The position numbers and the translations under genes were made by a program. The notes under the pieces are model-generated. The model was not told the DNA's origin. It saw only the letters and a list, made by a program, of their open reading frames with translations, and searched no databases. Below, in pieces: positions 22,117-32,676 of a DNA stretch of 34,514 nt (positions are counted from its first letter, which is position 1; each line of letters opens with the position of its first letter). Origin of the DNA: a virus; the IMG/VR virus record IMGVR_UViG_3300038701_000246, positions 1 to 34,514 of that record; one strand, 5' to 3'.

Positions 22117-23862
22117 ATGAAGAAGATCATGATTGAACAACAGGGAGCCGAGGACCGTCTTACCGCTGTGAAGAACGACTTCCGACTGTTCGTCTTCGTC
22201 CTGTGGAAACACCTCGGCCTTCCTGACCCAACCAGAATCCAATACGACATTGCTCAGTTCTTGCAACACGGTCCCTCTCGAGGGATGATCTCGGCTTTCC
22301 GAGGTGTAGGCAAGAGCTGGCTTACGTCGGCCTATGTAGTGTGGCTGCTACTGCGAGACCCTGACCTCAAGATCATGGTGGTCTCTGCATCCAAGGAACG
22401 TGCTGATGCCTTCTCGGTGTTCGTGAAGCGTATCATCAGTGAACTTGAGTTCTGCCGCCACCTCATCCCTCAGAAGCACCAGCGTAACTCTGCGATCTCC
22501 TTTGATGTAGGCCCTGCCAAGCCTGACCACTCTCCTTCGGTTAAGTCCGTAGGTATCACTGGTCAGATCACTGGTAGCCGTGCCGATATCATCATTGCCG
22601 ATGACGTGGAGGTTGCTAACAACAGTGACACGCAGGTAGCTCGAGATAAACTCTCGGAGGCCGTGAAGGAGTTCTCGGCTATCCTCAAGCCTGATCCTGG
22701 CCCCGAAGAGAAACGCATGGTCCCTCGGATCATCTACCTTGGTACTCCCCAGACAGAGGACTCTCTGTACAACAAGCTCCCTGAGCGTGGGTACACTGTC
22801 ACGATCTGGCCTGCTGAGATGCCTAAGGACGAGGACCTCCCGAAGTATGGGGATACCCTCGCCCCTATCGTCTTCACCTTGGATCTCAAGACAGGGGAAC
22901 CTGTAGACCCTCAGCGATTCAATGAGGAAGACCTGAGAGCACGTAAGGCCGAATACGGTCGAGCAGGCTACCAGCTACAGTTCATGCTCAACACCAGTCT
23001 ATCTGATGAGGAACGCTATCCTCTCAAGATGGCTGACCTACTGGTGACACCCTTGGATAGCTCTAAGGCACCGATGGGGTTCACTTGGATGCCTCACCCT
23101 GACCGTAGGCTCAGTGGAGACACTCCTAACATGGCTATGAACGGGGACTACTTCTACTGGCCCCAAGCTGCCCATGATATCACCATGGAGTACGAAGGTA
23201 TCGTCATGTCCATTGACCCTAGTGGTCGAGGTAAGGATGAGACTGGCTACGCTATCGTAGCTCAACTCAATGGCTATCAGTTCGTACTGGCCTGTGGTGG
23301 CTTCCAAGGCGGCTATGACCGTGAGACTGTACTCAAGCCACTGGCTATGCTGGCAGCTAAGTACAAGGTCTCTGAGATTGTCGTGGAGAGTAACTTCGGT
23401 GACGGTATGTTCAACGAGATATTCCTCCCGGTACTCCGAAAGATTCACCATTGTGGTCTCGAGGAAGTCCGTAGTTCAACTCAGAAGGAACGTAGGATCG
23501 CTGATACCCTCGAACCAGTGATGAACTCCCACAAGCTAGTGATAGACCCTCAGGTCATCCAGGATGACTACAAGAGCATCCAGAAGTATGAGTCTGAGGT
23601 ACGATCATCGAAGTCCCTGATCTACCAGATGTCTCGCCTAACGAGAGACAAAGGGTGTCTCAGACATGATGACCGGCTCGATGCTCTCGCAATGGCAGTA
23701 GCATACTGGTCAGAGAGTATGGCTAAGGATGAACTCCAAGGTATCCAAGATGCTCATGAAGAAGCACTCATGGAAGAGATGGATAAGATCCACGAGGCAT
23801 GGGGATGGAAGGACGTAGTAAACCAACCTCAGTCTACCCCTTGGGGAGGTACGTGGCGGTAG
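22117..23862 (+). CDS. Terminase large subunit (T7 gp19-like packaging motor)
   Basis: 581 aa, close to T7 gp19 (586). The ATPase half has Walker A at residues 60-67 (AFRGVGKS) and Walker B at about 157-165 (DIIIADDVE). The nuclease half begins at D367 (SIDPSGRGKDETGYAI) and continues with IVVESNFGDGMF and RHDDRLDALAMAVAYW, the RNase-H-like acidic sites. It pumps DNA into the prohead and cuts concatemers. It is the last late gene; the non-coding junction region follows. The start 22117 abuts the small-subunit stop; ATG 22129 is an alternative. Confidence 0.95.
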   Translation: MKKIMIEQQGAEDRLTAVKNDFRLFVFVLWKHLGLPDPTRIQYDIAQFLQHGPSRGMISAFRGVGKSWLTSAYVVWLLLRDPDLKIMVVSASKERADAFSVFVKRIISELEFCRHLIPQKHQRNSAISFDVGPAKPDHSPSVKSVGITGQITGSRADIIIADDVEVANNSDTQVARDKLSEAVKEFSAILKPDPGPEEKRMVPRIIYLGTPQTEDSLYNKLPERGYTVTIWPAEMPKDEDLPKYGDTLAPIVFTLDLKTGEPVDPQRFNEEDLRARKAEYGRAGYQLQFMLNTSLSDEERYPLKMADLLVTPLDSSKAPMGFTWMPHPDRRLSGDTPNMAMNGDYFYWPQAAHDITMEYEGIVMSIDPSGRGKDETGYAIVAQLNGYQFVLACGGFQGGYDRETVLKPLAMLAAKYKVSEIVVESNFGDGMFNEIFLPVLRKIHHCGLEEVRSSTQKERRIADTLEPVMNSHKLVIDPQVIQDDYKSIQKYESEVRSSKSLIYQMSRLTRDKGCLRHDDRLDALAMAVAYWSESMAKDELQGIQDAHEEALMEEMDKIHEAWGWKDVVNQPQSTPWGGTWR

Positions 23863-23879
23863 CTACGCTAGCCTTGGCG

Positions 23880-23897
23880 TTAATTAACAGCCATATG
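23880..23897 (+). promoter_or_regulatory. TTAATTAACAGCCATAT-G element, copy 1
   Basis: Seventeen bases identical (except the last) to 29927-29943, ending just before a G. It lies 17 bases after the terminase stop, the place of the T7 phi-OR promoter near the right genome end. See the finding on this element for the promoter hypothesis. Confidence 0.5.
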
Positions 23898-23933
23898 AAA
23901 AGATCCCCCCGGTTAAACATATAGTTATATACA

Positions 23934-23950
23934 CTAAGTGTTACACTTAG
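23934..23950. repeat. Perfect inverted repeat CTAAGTGT-T-ACACTTAG
   Basis: Eight-base perfect arms around one T. It overlaps the first two of the three 12-bp repeats, so the same bases could bind a dimeric protein. Confidence 0.7.
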
Positions 23951-23972
23951 AGTTACACTCTGAGTTAACTGT
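23937..23972 (+). repeat. Three tandem 12-bp iteron-like repeats
   Basis: AGTGTTACACTT, AGAGTTACACTC and TGAGTTAACTGT follow one another without gaps. The first two differ at two of twelve positions and the third is more diverged. A G-rich stretch (GGGGG) follows immediately. Short tandem repeats near the genome ends of T7-like phages may act in end processing or replication. Confidence 0.55.
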
Positions 23973-24040
23973 GGGGGATGTACCTAGGGGAACACGATAG
24001 GTTTTCCTACGGATTAACCCTAAGGGTAACCTTGGTGAGA

Positions 24041-24124: not shown

Positions 24125-24235
24125 GGGAGAAAAATCTGAGTAAGTAATCTATACGTATATACGCAGAAGTTTCCCCATAGCCCCCTGGTAGAAATCTCGG
24201 AGTTTTCCTATCGTTTTAGTATAGGTGGCCTCGGC

Positions 24236-24260
24236 TTGACCAATGATATATTGGTATAAG
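24236..24260 (+). promoter_or_regulatory. Operator-like palindrome with promoter-like bases
   Basis: ACCAAT-GATAT-ATTGGT (24239-24255) is a perfect 6-bp inverted repeat. It overlaps TTGACC (24236-24241, -35-like), and TATAAG (24255-24260, -10-like) lies 13 bases further on, too close for a standard sigma-70 promoter. It could be a repressor site controlling the early region. Confidence 0.35.
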
Positions 24261-25055: not shown

Positions 25056-25065
25056 TACTATGGAC
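25056..25065 (+). promoter_or_regulatory. TACTATGGAC promoter-like motif 1
   Basis: The upstream bases give TAGGTGATACTATGG, very close to the SP6 promoter core TAGGTGACACTATAG. The motif overlaps the ATG proposed for the GP88-like gene. Confidence 0.5.
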
Positions 25066-25824
25066 GCCCTTATTCAATTTAGTTCTCTCGCTGCTGCACG
25101 TCGTCACGCTGGCCAAGTAAGCGCTCGTAACTCTAAGATGCCCGGTAGCTCTTTCGCTATCTCAGCGAAGCACTGCAAGGTTGGCGCTAAGCTTGCCAAG
25201 ATTGAGGGTAGCACATGCCACAAGTGTTACGCGCTCAAGCTACAAAAGATGCGCCCTAGCGTAGATCAGGGGTGGACTTCAAACCTTGAGCTTTCCACGC
25301 AGGCAATCGCTGATAACCCTGAAATGTGGGTCGCGGCAATGGTCAAGCAGATTGAGCACTTCGCAATCAAGACAGGTGCACCCTATCATCGCTGGTTTGA
25401 CAGCGGCGACCTGCAGTCTATCGAAATGCTCTCAGCAATCTGCGAGGTTGCTGTCATGACGCCCGGCATTAAGCACTGGCTGCCCACGCGTGAGGCTAAG
25501 ATTGTTAAGACCTACCGTGACGCTGGCGGTTATGTGCCTGCAAACCTAATCATCCGCGTATCATCCACCATGATTGATGACGCACCTATTGCATCGCATG
25601 CTCACACGTCCACGGTGCACCGTAAATCATCAACGCCGCACGGCCATGAATGCCCGGCCTACCGTACACACCAAGCGACTGATGGTAGCTTTGAGGTACT
25701 GTCTGACGAGCACTACGCGTCCCTAAACCGTGACGGTAAAAAGCCCTATGACTTTGGTCACTGTGGCGAGTGCCGTGCCTGTTGGTCTCGTGACGTCACT
25801 AACGTGAGCTATGGCTTGCACTAA
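25060..25824 (+). CDS. GP88-like Cys-rich protein
   Basis: A 254-aa protein with two cysteine clusters: HCKVGAKLAKIEGSTCHKCY near the N-terminus and GHCGECRACWSRDVTNVSYG at the C-terminus. The middle carries PYHRWFDSGDLQS and HWLPTREAKIVKTY. This pattern matches the gene-product-88 family of actinophages and marine phages; its function is unknown and the cysteines suggest a metal or Fe-S site. The start is debatable: a weak AGGTGA lies four bases upstream, and the ATG is part of the TACTATGGAC motif, so a transcript starting at that motif would lack it. Next to it is a methylase-like gene. Confidence 0.7.
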   Translation: MDALIQFSSLAAARRHAGQVSARNSKMPGSSFAISAKHCKVGAKLAKIEGSTCHKCYALKLQKMRPSVDQGWTSNLELSTQAIADNPEMWVAAMVKQIEHFAIKTGAPYHRWFDSGDLQSIEMLSAICEVAVMTPGIKHWLPTREAKIVKTYRDAGGYVPANLIIRVSSTMIDDAPIASHAHTSTVHRKSSTPHGHECPAYRTHQATDGSFEVLSDEHYASLNRDGKKPYDFGHCGECRACWSRDVTNVSYGLH

Positions 25825-25903: not shown

Positions 25904-26638
25904 ATGCAAAAAGTACTTTCTCTCTTTGATCTCACTGGCAACATGGTGCGCCCTTGGGCAGAAGCAGGTCACATCTGTTTCATCGTGGATACACAGCATG
26001 AGAACGAGGGGATTGTTGAGACATTCCCAGAAACGGGCGGCGCTATCATTGCCGTGAATATAGACCTAAGCGACGCTGATGACGTCAAGTATCTCGCTAA
26101 TTGGGTCCAGCCTGACATCATCTTTTCTTTCCCGCCATGCACTGACCTAGCGGTAAGCGGTGCGCGGCACTTCAAGGCCAAGGCTGAGCGTGATCCTAAC
26201 TTCCAAGTTAACGCTGCTCTCTTAGCGTCAACCGCCAAGTTAATCGCTGCGTGGATGCTCAAAGACCACGGCAAGCAAGTCCCTTGGTTCGCTGAGAACC
26301 CTGTTTCTGTCCTGTCTACGCTGTGGCGCAAGCCGGATCACACGTTCAACCCATGCGACTACGGAGGCTATCTCTCGCCGTCTGAGTATGAGCATCCGCT
26401 TTACCCTGATGTCATCCCAGCGCGTGACGCGTACACAAAGAAGACATGTCTGTGGTCTGGCGGTGGCTTCAAGATGCCCACGCCTATGCCCGTTGAACCG
26501 GAAACAGCAGGGGCAGGCGAGACCACGCCACTACACGCCAAGCTAGGCGGCAAGTCCATGCGAACTAAGAACATCCGAAGCGCTACCCCTCGAGGCTTCG
26601 CCAAGGCTGTCTATCTCGCCAACGTGCAGTCTGCCTAA
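25904..26638 (+). CDS. Cytosine-5 DNA methyltransferase-like protein
   Basis: A 244-aa protein with the skeleton of C5-methylases. The motif I-like segment SLFDLTG (residues 6-12) would bind SAM. An acidic D29 follows VCFIVD-type strand 2 (CFIVDTQ). The motif IV-like segment FSFPPCTDLAVSG carries the candidate nucleophile C79 after PP, and WFAENPVSVL (E131-N132-P133) takes the place of the usual ENV. Downstream, GGKSMRTKNIRSATPRGFAKA resembles a short target/motif IX-X region. It is small for the family and has no obvious target-recognition domain. It may modify phage DNA to evade restriction or act on a different base context. The start has GGAG nine bases upstream. Confidence 0.65.
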   Translation: MQKVLSLFDLTGNMVRPWAEAGHICFIVDTQHENEGIVETFPETGGAIIAVNIDLSDADDVKYLANWVQPDIIFSFPPCTDLAVSGARHFKAKAERDPNFQVNAALLASTAKLIAAWMLKDHGKQVPWFAENPVSVLSTLWRKPDHTFNPCDYGGYLSPSEYEHPLYPDVIPARDAYTKKTCLWSGGGFKMPTPMPVEPETAGAGETTPLHAKLGGKSMRTKNIRSATPRGFAKAVYLANVQSA

Positions 26639-28265: not shown

Positions 28266-28361
28266 GTGCTAAATGGGGATTTAACCACTAGAGCTAAACA
28301 TTATCTAAAAAAGAACCAACGCCGTCTCATGAAAGGATATGCACCATGGCAACCCGATTAG
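28266..28361 (+). CDS. 31-aa leader ORF ahead of MarR-like gene
   Basis: A GTG start lies five bases after a near-perfect AGGAGGT (28254-28260). The product starts LNGDLTTRAKHYLKKNQ and is basic. It overlaps the MarR-like start by 16 bases in another frame. The first bases CTAGTG pair with CACTAG at 28284-28289, which could occlude this start. It may be a translational regulator of the MarR-like gene or a small protein of its own. Confidence 0.35.
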   Translation: MLNGDLTTRAKHYLKKNQRRLMKGYAPWQPD

Positions 28362-28738
28362 ACCTTAGAAAACTCCACAGGGCCATTAAGTTGGTCGCTG
28401 AGATTGACCCGTTCATGACCATCACTCGCCTTGAGACGTTCCTTGCGTTCGCCTCAGACAAAGGCATCAACTCAGTGCAAGACCTCCGCGAGTACCTTGC
28501 GCTAACAGACATCAGCTCCAGCGCAGTATCACGCAACGTGAGCTATTGGATGGACCAGCAGTGGCTACGCCCTGATGGCACACGTCCAGATGGTGAAAAG
28601 TTTATTCGGTCGTACCCCGATCCGATGGACCACCGACGTAAGATGATGGAGTTGACCCCACGTGGACACAACTTCTGCGATAAACTTTACGAGGCTACCT
28701 ATGGCTTACCTGAACCAGAACAACACCTACACGACTAA
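28346..28738 (+). CDS. MarR-like winged-helix regulator
   Basis: A 130-aa protein with a winged helix. ITRLETFLAFASDKGINSVQDLREYL precedes the turn, SSSAVSRNVSYWMDQ (about residues 57-71) is the recognition helix, and the wing contains DPMDHRRKMMELTPRG (92-107), the D-R-R-x-x-x-L-T-x-x-G signature of MarR proteins. It starts after GAAAGGA and overlaps the integrase start by 38 bases, so both are translated together. With an integrase and a phage RNA polymerase gene downstream, it is the obvious candidate for a lysogeny repressor or directionality regulator. It lacks a recognisable ligand-binding helix set. Confidence 0.75.
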   Translation: MATRLDLRKLHRAIKLVAEIDPFMTITRLETFLAFASDKGINSVQDLREYLALTDISSSAVSRNVSYWMDQQWLRPDGTRPDGEKFIRSYPDPMDHRRKMMELTPRGHNFCDKLYEATYGLPEPEQHLHD

Positions 28739-29681
28739 GCGCATCGTCTGCCCCGTGACTGGCAAAGGACGCACTAAGACGTTCCCATCTCTGGGCCAGG
28801 CGCAAGCGTGGGAAGAACTAGCCCTAGCTGCACGTGCCGAAGGTAGAGAGCTACCGGATGCCCTTGGTCCTACTATGGACAGAACGCTAGAATCAGTCGT
28901 GCGTCGGCTGCTGGATGAGTTCTATCGGTACAAGACCAAGGCGACCTACGGCACTGCTCGGGGTACGCTCAACCGTCTCATGGTTCTTTGGGGCAAACAG
29001 TCCCCTATCAGCACAGTTCTCACCTCGGAGAACGTCTCGCGTTTCCTTGCGGACCTCATGGATCAAGGGCGCAGTGCGAGCTACGTCAATAGCTTCAACC
29101 AGTACTTCCGCAAGCTAAGCGAGTACTGTCACAAGTGGGGTTACATCGAGAAGCCTATCGACGTGCCTCCTACTCTCAAGCGAGAGCGCACTAAATTCGA
29201 ATGGTGTACTATGGACGAGGTGGATCAACTGGTACACCAGATGCCCAAACGATACGGACCCCTAGTGCGCTTTATCAATGCGACAGGCTTGCGTATCACC
29301 GAAGCCCTCACGATCACCCACAGAGACCTCGAGGATGGCCGTGTACGGGTGTTAGGCAAGGGAGTTAAGCTGAGATACGTCCCGCTATCAGAGACCGCTC
29401 AGCAGGCTCTCAGCGCCGTCCCTAAAGGTGAAGGCCCGGTGTTCAACATCAACTACCAGAGCCTCGCCTACGCCATGAAGGTGGCCAGTGTTCGCTGCGG
29501 GTTCATCCCAACGGTAACCCCGCACACCCTGCGTCACTCCTTTGCTTCTCGCCTAGCTCAGAAGGGCGTGGACATCGTGAAGCTACAGGAACTCATGGGC
29601 CACGCAGATATCTCTATGACCCGCAGGTATATGCACCTACATCCCGACTGGATGGACGAGGTTCACGATCTGTTGGACTGA
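28701..29681 (+). CDS. Tyrosine site-specific recombinase (integrase)
   Basis: The ATG at 28701 (GAGG, six bases upstream) gives 326 aa; ATG 28662 would add 13 residues and lacks a ribosome-binding site. The catalytic set is complete in order: R198 (GLRITEAL), K220/K223 (GKGVKLRYVP), H275-x-x-R278 (HTLRH), H301 (LMGHADIS) and nucleophile Y310 (TRRYMHL). An N-terminal arm-binding/core domain precedes it. It would integrate the circularised genome into the host, as in marine podoviruses that carry integrase next to the RNA polymerase. Two TACTATGGAC motifs lie inside. The downstream non-coding stretch is the natural place for attP. Confidence 0.92.
   Translation: MAYLNQNNTYTTKRIVCPVTGKGRTKTFPSLGQAQAWEELALAARAEGRELPDALGPTMDRTLESVVRRLLDEFYRYKTKATYGTARGTLNRLMVLWGKQSPISTVLTSENVSRFLADLMDQGRSASYVNSFNQYFRKLSEYCHKWGYIEKPIDVPPTLKRERTKFEWCTMDEVDQLVHQMPKRYGPLVRFINATGLRITEALTITHRDLEDGRVRVLGKGVKLRYVPLSETAQQALSAVPKGEGPVFNINYQSLAYAMKVASVRCGFIPTVTPHTLRHSFASRLAQKGVDIVKLQELMGHADISMTRRYMHLHPDWMDEVHDLLD
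28871..28880 (+). promoter_or_regulatory. TACTATGGAC promoter-like motif 5
   Basis: CCTACTATGGACAG lies within the integrase coding sequence (Pro-Thr-Met-Asp). Confidence 0.4.
29207..29216 (+). promoter_or_regulatory. TACTATGGAC promoter-like motif 6
   Basis: GTGTACTATGGACGAGG within the integrase gene, 336 bases after motif 5, upstream of the RNA polymerase gene. Confidence 0.4.
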
Positions 29682-29690
29682 TGTTCTCCA

Positions 29691-29776
29691 TTAGTGAGTT
29701 CACTAATATTAGTGAGAATCCATTGGTGAACTCGCGCAACCCTCTGTAATCATTAGCTTTTCTCGTTGGTAAACTC
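29691..29776. repeat. TTRGTRAACTC repeat cluster
   Basis: TTAGTGA-GT-TCACTAA (29691-29706) is a perfect palindrome whose right half is TTAGTGAACTC on the other strand (29696-29706). TTGGTGAACTC is at 29723-29733, TTGGTAAACTC at 29766-29776, and a partial TTAGTGA at 29709-29715. The spacing and two orientations suit arm-type sites for an integrase or operators for the MarR-like protein. Confidence 0.65.
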
Positions 29777-29869
29777 AGGAAATCAAGTGTTGACTTGTTG
29801 GGATATCGTTCCCTCAACAGCATATAGCGCCAGATAGGCGAGAGATTTCCTATAGATATCAGCGGGTAG

Positions 29870-29898
29870 CCCCAAACAAGTTCAATGCTTGGTCGGGG
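29870..29898 (+). terminator. Imperfect hairpin upstream of RNA polymerase gene
   Basis: CCCCAAACAAG pairs with CTTGGTCGGGG at nine of eleven positions around a 7-base loop. No U-tract. It could attenuate host transcription or be an RNase processing site ahead of RNA polymerase. Confidence 0.4.
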
Positions 29899-29926
29899 TT
29901 AATCCCTCAATAAGGGCCAATGGCAA

Positions 29927-29944
29927 TTAATTAACAGCCATACG
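29927..29944 (+). promoter_or_regulatory. TTAATTAACAGCCATAC-G element, copy 2
   Basis: It ends 38 bases before the RNA polymerase ATG. Identity with copy 3 continues past the G (CGCCCA). This would place RNA polymerase transcription under a phage- or host-recognised element. Confidence 0.55.
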
Positions 29945-29981
29945 CCCAGTCCCCTTTCAGATATCCCTAGGAGGAACACGA

Positions 29982-32585
29982 ATGACCTACTCAGTTGATC
30001 TCTCTAAGCTCAAAGATCCTGACGTCTACGCAGCAGCAGTAGAGCGCTACGGTGAAGACCTCATGTCTCGTCAGGTTGAACTCGAGCGATGGTCGAATGA
30101 GCGTGGTGAGATTAAGTTCACTCGCAATGCTCAGGAAATGGCCAGCAAGGGACGTATCCACGAACACTCCACTGGCCGCTGTGCTGTAGAAGCATACTAT
30201 GGACCATTCCGTGAGGCCCTTGAGTGGCAACTTGAGCGGAGTGGCCGCGGCGCTCGTGCAGCGTGGAAGAACCTCCTAGATCGCAATGGTCACGTAGATG
30301 CTGCTGACGTGGCTCTCATCGCTCTCCGGTCGATCCTCTCAATGGTAGCTCGGGGTGACCGCTCAGAGCAGCAGCAGGTAGCTCGTTTCGTGATGGACAA
30401 CATCAAGACCGAGATCACCACCCGCGAGTTCCAGCAGCAAACCCCGCTAGCCATTAAGGATTACATGCAGAAGGCTCAACGTAAACAGATGAGCATCAAG
30501 CAGATCAAGACTGACGTGAAGGCCATTATGGCGTCTCGTGAGGTATCCTACACCCCGCCAGGCTTCGAGAACTCAGGTAACGTGATCGCAGCAGGCGTGG
30601 CCCTGATGCAGATCCTCATGCAGGCATGCCCCGGTGTGATCGAGTTCTCCAACCCGACCTACGATGGCCGCAAGTCTTACATCTACGTCCATATCGGTGC
30701 TGAACTACAGCAACTGCTCGATGAGAAGATCATGAGTGTAGCCTCGGTGTCCTTCGCAGCGATGCCCCTGTTGGTGCCTCCTGTAGAGTGGTCCACCTCT
30801 AACCTCGCCATGGGTGGCTTCTACTCCACCTACATTCGCAACTACCCTCTCGTGAAGAAGACGCGGAAGCTCTACTCCATTGAGGTACAGAACACCGCCA
30901 AGATCGGTCAGGTTACCTCAGCGGTAAACGCCATGCAGAACACCGGATGGAAGATCAACCATAAGGTGCTCTCTGTGTTCAAGTGGCTGTTCAACCACAA
31001 GGAGCAGTTGGTATCCGGCTTTGCTCGAGCGGATATCCCAGAGGCCCCGCGGTGGGACGAAGAGTATTGGGAGGCGAACAAGCAGGAATGTAAGAAGATC
31101 CTCTTCCAGCACCACGAGGAAGAACGCTCCATGAAGTCGGTGCGCTTGCAGTACCTTACGCTGCTTGAAGCTGCCGAAATGTTTGCTCAAGAGGAAGCAT
31201 TCTACTTCGCTTGGGATCTCGACAGCCGTGGTCGTGCCTACCCCATCACCTCCAACCTGTCCCCTCAAGGGTCAGACTGGACGAAGCACCTGATGCACTT
31301 CGCTAAGGGCCAGGTGATCGAGAAAGACAGTGACATGGATGGTATCCGCTTCGCAGTGGCAAACGCTATGGGCCACGACAAGCTGCCCATCGCTGAACGT
31401 ATCCAGTGGACCAAGGATAACCTCGCAGAGTTGATCGCTGTAGGTCAGGACCCTCAGTCCCACCTACTATGGACGGACGCGGAGGAGCCAGCAGCGTTCC
31501 TAGCTGGTTGCATCGAGTTGGCCGAGTACGCGGAACAGGGCGTGGGCTTCATCTCCCGCATGCCTGTAGCCGTAGACGCCACCTGTAGTGGCCTCCAAGG
31601 TCTCTCAGCGCTCTCTCGTGATGAAGTGGGTGGCAAGATGGTGAACCTCACCTCTGAGGATGAACGCTTCGACATCTACGCAGCAGTGGCCGAAGGTCCA
31701 TTCCGTCGGAAGCTCGAAGAGTGCGCTCGGGGTGACCTAGGTGCCTACGCGGACGTGGAGAAGGCTCAAGAGTTCGCCAAGGCGGCGCTCGAGTTCGGCT
31801 TCGACCGCAAGCTCACCAAGCGTCCAGTCATGACGGTACCCTACGCGGCACAGGAAGACTCCTGCCGTCGCTACGTCCGTGAATACTACCACGACCGTAT
31901 GAAGAAAGAGGGCGCACCTCATGAGCAGTTCGTGAAGTTCTCTACGTTCATGGCGAAGATCCTTTGGGACTCCATCCCTGAGGTGATCGTAAAGGGCCTC
32001 GAGGTCATGAAGTGGCTCCAAGAGGTATCCGTGATTGCCGTCAGGGCTAACCCCAACGTCCCTCTCCAGTGGGATACCCCTGATGGTTTCGTAGGTCGCA
32101 CCAACCGACCTAAGGAACGCTTCATCCAACCCCAGCTTTACATCTACGACTACAAGAGCCGTGGCGCTAAGGCACTCGAGAAGGCAGGCATGGACCACAC
32201 GTCCCTGCGTACCCGGCAGTGGACCGACGTGGAGGACCCTAAGCAGCACAAGAACTCCTGTGCGCCTAACTTCGTACACTCTCTCGATGCTGCTCAGCTC
32301 CGTGCAGTGGTACGCCGTTGGACCAGAATATGTGCTGTACGGGGAACTTCCCCTGAGTTCGCCATGATCCACGACAGCTTCGCCGTGGGTACTCGAGACT
32401 TCTATGAGTTCAACACGGTGATCCGTGAAGAGTTCGTGAAGCTCTACGAAGAGTGTGACCCTCTGGCCGAGTACGAACTGGCCATGCGTGAAATCGCTGG
32501 TCCAGACGCCGTGTTTCCACCGCGCCCTACTATGGGCAGCTTGGACATTCGGGAAACCCTGAACTCGGAATATTTCTTTTCATAG
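29982..32585 (+). CDS. Single-subunit DNA-dependent RNA polymerase (T7 gp1-like)
   Basis: 867 aa (T7: 883). Palm and finger motifs are intact. Motif A is VAVDATCSGLQGLSA with metal ligand D532. Motif B is KLTKRPVMTVPY, with K613 and Y621 eight residues apart, as K631/Y639 in T7. Motif C is MIHDSF with D798. SRGRAYPITSNLSPQGSDW is the usual conserved block. The end, NSEYFFS, replaces the FAFA foot of T7. It transcribes phage middle and late genes. The gene has an excellent ribosome-binding site (TAGGAGGAACACGA) and is preceded by the 17-nt element; three TACTATGG-type motifs lie inside it or at its end. Confidence 0.97.
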   Translation: MTYSVDLSKLKDPDVYAAAVERYGEDLMSRQVELERWSNERGEIKFTRNAQEMASKGRIHEHSTGRCAVEAYYGPFREALEWQLERSGRGARAAWKNLLDRNGHVDAADVALIALRSILSMVARGDRSEQQQVARFVMDNIKTEITTREFQQQTPLAIKDYMQKAQRKQMSIKQIKTDVKAIMASREVSYTPPGFENSGNVIAAGVALMQILMQACPGVIEFSNPTYDGRKSYIYVHIGAELQQLLDEKIMSVASVSFAAMPLLVPPVEWSTSNLAMGGFYSTYIRNYPLVKKTRKLYSIEVQNTAKIGQVTSAVNAMQNTGWKINHKVLSVFKWLFNHKEQLVSGFARADIPEAPRWDEEYWEANKQECKKILFQHHEEERSMKSVRLQYLTLLEAAEMFAQEEAFYFAWDLDSRGRAYPITSNLSPQGSDWTKHLMHFAKGQVIEKDSDMDGIRFAVANAMGHDKLPIAERIQWTKDNLAELIAVGQDPQSHLLWTDAEEPAAFLAGCIELAEYAEQGVGFISRMPVAVDATCSGLQGLSALSRDEVGGKMVNLTSEDERFDIYAAVAEGPFRRKLEECARGDLGAYADVEKAQEFAKAALEFGFDRKLTKRPVMTVPYAAQEDSCRRYVREYYHDRMKKEGAPHEQFVKFSTFMAKILWDSIPEVIVKGLEVMKWLQEVSVIAVRANPNVPLQWDTPDGFVGRTNRPKERFIQPQLYIYDYKSRGAKALEKAGMDHTSLRTRQWTDVEDPKQHKNSCAPNFVHSLDAAQLRAVVRRWTRICAVRGTSPEFAMIHDSFAVGTRDFYEFNTVIREEFVKLYEECDPLAEYELAMREIAGPDAVFPPRPTMGSLDIRETLNSEYFFS
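30195..30204 (+). promoter_or_regulatory. TACTATGGAC promoter-like motif 7
   Basis: GCATACTATGGACC in the RNA polymerase gene. It is read there as Tyr-Tyr-Gly, a different codon phase from motifs 5 and 6, which argues that the nucleotide sequence itself is selected. Confidence 0.4.
31465..31474 (+). promoter_or_regulatory. TACTATGGAC promoter-like motif 8
   Basis: CACCTACTATGGACGG in the RNA polymerase gene, third codon phase (Leu-Leu-Trp-Thr). Confidence 0.4.
32528..32537 (+). promoter_or_regulatory. TACTATGGGC promoter-like motif 9
   Basis: CCCTACTATGGGCAG, one mismatch from the family, near the 3' end of the RNA polymerase gene and 140 bases upstream of SSB. This corresponds to the place of T7 phi1.1-type promoters after gene 1. 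Confidence 0.45.
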
Positions 32586-32612: not shown

Positions 32613-32619
32613 CTCTGAA

Positions 32620-32637
32620 TTTATTAACAGCCATACG
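32620..32637 (+). promoter_or_regulatory. TTTATTAACAGCCATAC-G element, copy 3
   Basis: One mismatch to copy 2, with the shared tail CGCCCA. It ends 40 bases upstream of the SSB start, closely matching the spacing of copy 2 to the RNA polymerase start. Confidence 0.55.
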
Positions 32638-32676
32638 CCCACCCAAACCGAAACAGCCAGAAAGGAGATATCTCAC

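Follow-up and report, generated by a model that had tools for sequence, protein, structure and literature searches.

Gene content of the locus

The window, that is, the whole 34,514-nucleotide stretch of DNA analysed here, is a linear, partial IMG/VR-type virus record of a T7-like phage. Genes for head, tail and internal virion proteins lead into terL (22117–23862) and an early region (about 24–28 kb), followed by a MarR-like regulator gene (marR), a tyrosine integrase gene (int) and a T7-type RNA polymerase gene (RNAP). Beyond these lie genes for an ssDNA-binding protein (SSB), an endonuclease, lysozyme and the start of a primase-helicase, within which the contig terminates, most of the middle region being absent from the record. 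Since late genes are found upstream of early genes, the junction of the genome ends lies within the record. A T7-type collinear gene set (RNAP, SSB, endonuclease, lysozyme and primase-helicase; head, tail and TerL) is thus present on this partial contig, and the single-subunit RNAP gene places the phage in the Autographiviridae sensu lato. We detected no tRNA gene and no Rfam match in the window, and sigma-70 promoters and intrinsic terminators predicted in 23.8–30.1 kb showed no excess over shuffles. Among the early ORFs scanned, which comprised part of the small ORFs of a contig without most of its middle region, there was no CI/Cro-like match. Two early genes encode a GP88-domain protein (25060–25824; Pfam 4e-23) and a DNA methyltransferase-type protein (25904–26638; phrog_757 6.2e-72), possibly host-takeover or anti-restriction genes.

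The regulator matches phrog_9665 ('transcriptional regulator', 7.9e-17), and its Pfam MarR_2 match is marginal (0.058, below the cut-off). A profile of the regulator and its homologues retrieved mostly MarR-family chains from the PDB (best 6pcp, 1.6e-6), and the protein carries a MarR wing signature of the D-x-x-x-x-R-x-x-x-x-L-T-x-x-G type (DPMDHRRKMMELTPRG); its predicted structure (pLDDT 51.8) was too poor for use in fold assignment. A 60% identical homologue is encoded by the related contig L003. The integrase reading frame is open from GTG 28662, and we place its start at ATG 28701 because homologues begin there (MAYQNQN...). Its catalytic set is complete (R198, K220/K223, H275, R278, H301, Y310) and fully kept in relatives 60–63% identical; with both genes intact, this indicates that purifying selection is acting.

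These results bear out the first-pass annotation, which had described a lysogeny-type module in which a full tyrosine recombinase overlaps a MarR-like gene ahead of RNAP. Counted from the integrase ATG, the overlap is 38 nt. It was also presented as a special feature of the locus; the overlap is real but not conserved, the marR–int junction being a 12-nt gap in L003, a 4-nt overlap in roseophage CRP-403, and occupied by a tRNA gene in phages LUZ100 and HTVC200P.

Table 1 Features of the locus (window coordinates) and of two integrated relatives (contig coordinates)
Feature	Position	Strand	Basis or remarks
MarR-like (winged-helix) regulator, 130 aa	28346–28738, ATG start	+	phrog_9665; PDB profile; L003 homologue
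Tyrosine integrase, 326 aa	28701–29681	+	Pfam Phage_integrase 9.5e-27; catalytic R-K-H-R-H-Y
Conserved block at/after int stop: TGATGTTCTCCATT into TTAGTGA-GT-TCACTAA-TA-TTAGTGA (29691–29715)	29677–29715	.	Kept in L003, L010, L011
int–RNAP spacer with the presumed attP zone and an RNAP leader that folds strongly	29682–29981	+	RNA fold; prophage att positions
Phage-RNAP promoter AATTAATTAACAGCCATACGCCCA upstream of RNAP	29925–29948	+	Near-copy at 32618; equivalents in related contigs
T7-type single-subunit RNA polymerase	29982–32585	+	phrog_414 1.3e-185; Pfam RNA_pol 1.5e-68
Second phage-RNAP promoter, upstream of SSB gene	32618–32641	+	One difference from first copy
Third promoter-like copy, directly downstream of terL (GTTAATTAACAGCCATA)	23879–23895	+	Exact 12-mer core at 23884
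G385 prophage (L021–L023)	G385:C7:119992–162680		RNAP 120293–122830; marR-int 160929–162658
G682 prophage (L047–L050), in 3.33-Mb contig	G682:C1:77655–118276		RNAP from 77968; marR-int 116704–118126

A family of phage-polymerase promoters

When viral contigs were scanned with RNAP and Int, three contigs bearing int came up, together with L012, which has RNAP only, and a distant one; the other DNA-pattern matches proved unrelated. Footprinting across related contigs identified the promoter of the phage RNAP, a promoter family that is a new addition of this study. In the window, the 24-mer upstream of RNAP has a second copy before the SSB gene that differs at one position (0 expected); the 12-nt core of the 24-mer is found once more after terL, in a copy with 4 mismatches to the 21-mer promoter consensus. 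The 24-mer direct repeat was rejected as an att duplication, as it is the phage promoter. The true start of the SSB gene is probably ATG 32678.

An equivalent element, with its own core in each contig, occurs in 3–4 copies in L009, L010, L011 and L012, and a copy lies upstream of RNAP in every contig covering that region. The core reads AACAGCC in the window, CCCGGTA in L003/L009 (four copies), TCCGGTG-type with some variation in L010 and L011 (four copies each) and TCCGGCG in L012 (three copies). It differs between genomes, yet is largely uniform among the copies of one contig; such change in concert within a genome is a prediction of RNAP–promoter co-evolution. As L010 and L011 are near-identical in this region, the comparison comprises four independent genomes. 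In the window, 33 nt separate the end of the copy ahead of RNAP from the gene, so RNAP should activate itself, as promoter phi1 of LUZ100 also suggests. The footprinted RNAP–promoter pairs may also lend themselves to use as orthogonal transcription parts. At 23879–24000, the promoter-like copy after terL is followed by a repetitive AT-rich stretch (CACTAAGTGTTACACTTAGAGTTACACTC); the end region of the genome, with a right-end promoter, probably lies here.

A conserved palindromic array follows the integrase gene

The first-pass annotation had singled out the int–RNAP interval as a control region and described the module as fused to the RNAP operon. The former stands, as the interval holds both a conserved palindromic array and the phage-RNAP promoter; 'fused' is too strong, because 300 non-coding nt separate int from RNAP. 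The array comprises three alternating half-sites and was found in 0 of 300 simulated windows (first-order, same length). It reads TTAGTGA-AA-TCACGAA-TA-TTAGTGG in L003 and TTCGTGA-AA-TGACGAA-TA-TTCGTAG in L010/L011, where an A-to-C change at the third half-site position has spread to all three half-sites, and the adjoining TGATGTTCTCCATT is invariant among the window, L003, L010 and L011. We regard this conserved, co-varying array, which is likewise new, as a candidate for the MarR operator, for part of attP, or for both. A second binding site had been proposed at 24228–24260, which lacks the array found at 29690 and holds an unlike palindrome (CCAATGATATATTGG).

In L010 and L011, a separate 177-aa ORF stands between the conserved block and the RNAP promoter, so that the block stays linked to int and the promoter to RNAP. 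This ORF (L010:840–1373 and L011:1299–1832; in-frame ATG: MNIFYTHHLPSECARDHCDKH...) encodes what we take to resemble a pyrimidine-dimer glycosylase-type protein. The RNAP leader of the window (29720–29930) folds far more stably than shuffled sequence does (RNA fold z-score -3.58), with no intrinsic terminator recognised. A GTGAC motif shared at att regions was enriched in CRP-403, G198 and G682; we dropped it because there was no enrichment in the window, LUZ100 or HTVC200P.

Integrated relatives split the integrase from the polymerase

Searching 399 genomes of a single phylum with an RNAP profile yielded four matches, including a partial one, and two partly overlapping class samples added one more; RNAP-bearing T7-like prophages amounted to 4/399, 2/385 and 1/369 genomes in these overlapping samples. 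G385, G198 and G682 carry int-bearing T7-like prophages, each with marR, whose relationship to the window is distant (phmmer E-values for Int, 4e-22 to 9e-10). All three have RNAP and marR-int at opposite prophage ends, about 40 kb apart, which places attP between int and RNAP. Thus, the module adjoins RNAP in the free genome only. The att core follows int directly in G385 and closely in G198 and G682. Because the known prophages are distant, we infer the attP position in the window by analogy with them and from the conserved block; that attP would lie between int and RNAP is the best-supported step beyond the genes themselves.

In G385 and G682, a host tRNA-Leu is split at the anticodon loop (cores CTGGATTTAGGTT and CAGACTCAAAATCTG, respectively), and a complete tRNA-Leu is present inside the prophage, near int. 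This arrangement resembles the tRNA-dependent lysogeny of actinobacteriophages (PMC10865867). Between attL and RNAP, both prophages also carry a strong intrinsic terminator that would keep transcription from the host tRNA promoter out of RNAP. The G198 site (core GCCTAACGAAGTGTT) is without a detected tRNA; contig C12 reads host–core–RNAP, C34 reads int–core–host, and C16 runs core to core, so that the phage ends meet at the core. These contig ends, as read from the assembly, are consistent with attL, attR and attP coexisting. In LUZ100 and HTVC200P, a tRNA-Leu(TAA) precedes int; instead of being left over from imprecise excision, this gene may serve as a replacement. A further prophage, in G262 (G262:C13:173345–209025; L024–L026), has a full-length RNAP match and no recognisable int or marR; its RNAP is preceded, at a distance of about 590 bp, by a dif-like site (TTTAACATAATATACATTATGCGAAG), and each prophage end has a 15-bp repeat (AAGTGTCATGTAACT) nearby; host XerCD possibly integrated this phage.

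The suggestion that the genome be sought as a prophage therefore holds for distant T7-like relatives, which carry the same three genes integrated; for the window phage, our search of genome contigs found no close integrated relative and no attB. Its sole match, at 39%, covered part of an integrase from a Vibrio genome that has no T7-type RNAP. Searching 754 genomes for attB with the invariant 14-mer TGATGTTCTCCATT gave 15 matches (the reversed control pattern gave 3 in one class and none was seen in the other) and no recurrent tRNA or gene; only two matches share context, a pair of homologous genes, and none lies in a tRNA.

A model for integration and lytic control

Taken together, we consider it probable that this region is the integration and lytic-control region of an integrase-bearing T7-like phage, in which attP follows int, integration disconnects RNAP and the MarR-like protein restrains it. 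In the free genome, host polymerase would transcribe marR and int from early promoters and read through into RNAP, which would then amplify itself from its own promoter and drive the middle and late genes. The integrase would recombine at attP in the spacer directly after int. Upon integration, RNAP, along with its self-promoter, would come to lie beside host DNA, about 40 kb from marR-int at the opposite end of the prophage, and would thereby lose its upstream host promoters. The MarR-like protein would most likely bind the TTAGTGA palindromes, restraining residual RNAP expression and perhaps recombination. A fuller version is more doubtful: that integration is itself the lytic-off switch by cutting RNAP from every upstream host promoter, that in tRNA-integrating members a terminator just inside attL shields RNAP from the host tRNA promoter, and that MarR at the att/operator array couples recombination to RNAP repression.

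The array could instead be solely an integrase attachment site, with core or arm-type Int sites, and MarR could act elsewhere, for example at early promoters. We hold this to be a serious contender, if the less probable one: the array stands directly after the int stop, where the att core lies in G385 and close to which it lies in G198 and G682, and TGATGTTCTCCATT is invariant in related phages. Inverted half-sites 9 bp apart from centre to centre, forming overlapping palindromes, are typical of HTH dimers and not of tyrosine-recombinase cores. The array has this spacing, with two overlapping palindromes, and may therefore not be attP itself; moreover, no anticodon-arm-like core was found at the array or elsewhere near the int end of the window. 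Spacing thus favours an HTH dimer and position favours attP. Much further from likely is a decaying module, with marR and int as remnants in a strictly lytic phage. The missing close relative and attB would suit it, but the intact genes and the catalytic residues kept across int relatives speak against it.

We also weighed an essentially lytic phage that integrates transiently, without lysogeny or stable repression, its MarR-like protein only tuning early transcription. Such behaviour has precedents, as the T7-like cyanophages S-TIP37 and P-SSP7 integrate without stable lysogens (PMC8776855) and LUZ100 lysogens were not obtained (PMC10134795); RNAP-bearing T7-like prophages are also rare. Against this, marR is kept beside int in the window, L003 and 3/3 int-bearing prophages, and in two of these prophages a tRNA gene is split and a substitute tRNA supplied, implying lasting integration. 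We therefore regard purely transient integration as rather unlikely, and favour the region as one of integration and lytic control.

T7-like phages, which serve in phage therapy, were for a long time taken to be strictly lytic. To the question of how their integrase-bearing members lie dormant, the geometry of the split prophages suggests a simple answer, namely that the RNAP gene is physically disconnected. That RNAP control serves as the switch, as the first-pass annotation had it, is the obvious reading and agrees with the model published for LUZ100 (PMC10134795); physical disconnection is not considered in the available portion of that read-through model. Besides the promoter family, this geometric argument is what we add.

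Comparison with known systems

The switch had been called unusual, which does not hold: the marR–int–RNAP order is already known from integrase-bearing 'temperate T7-like' phages of Pelagibacter, Roseobacter, Caulobacter and Pseudomonas (LUZ100). A tblastn search with the regulator matched 24 phage records, including Pelagibacter, Roseobacter, cyanophage, Caulobacter and LUZ100 phages, and the order was the same in all four records opened (CRP-403, LUZ100, HTVC200P and S2B). The window belongs to this group, with marR and int directly upstream of RNAP and a phage-RNAP promoter before it. Its lineage is far from cultured phages. The closest, the Autographiviridae roseophages CRP-403, CRP-118 and CRP-804 (PMC11092137), share about 60% identity in TerL and very low identity in Int and RNAP (about 30%); CRP-403 has the same gene order. 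In its available portions, their description mentions the integrase and no MarR, attP or operator.

Pseudomonas phage LUZ100 (OP329100; PMC10134795) likewise encodes a MarR-like regulator, a tyrosine integrase and RNAP in order, with phi1 directly upstream of RNAP, and its authors, citing earlier work (their refs 14, 15), already proposed that MarR silences RNAP. Unlike the window, LUZ100 has tRNA-Leu between marR and int and terminator T4 after int; in the window the genes overlap, with no tRNA and no clear intrinsic terminator, and MarR and Int are only about 23–28% identical to those of LUZ100. P-SSP7 and S-TIP37 resemble the window phage in having an integrase; their attP, downstream of int, matches tRNA-Leu, and integration needs both int and attP (PMC8776855). 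They probably differ in this tRNA-Leu site and in lacking stable lysogeny, and their authors found no repressor homologue. In our literature search, whose coverage stops short of key earlier work, we found no description of an int/RNAP split in integrated prophages.

In mycobacteriophages of the BPs type, the attachment site is reportedly tied to the repressor. As far as the available part of the work on their integration-dependent immunity goes (PMC4557955), attP lies inside the control region and integration itself alters the switch, as we propose here; unlike in BPs, integration of the window phage would sever RNAP from its upstream promoters.
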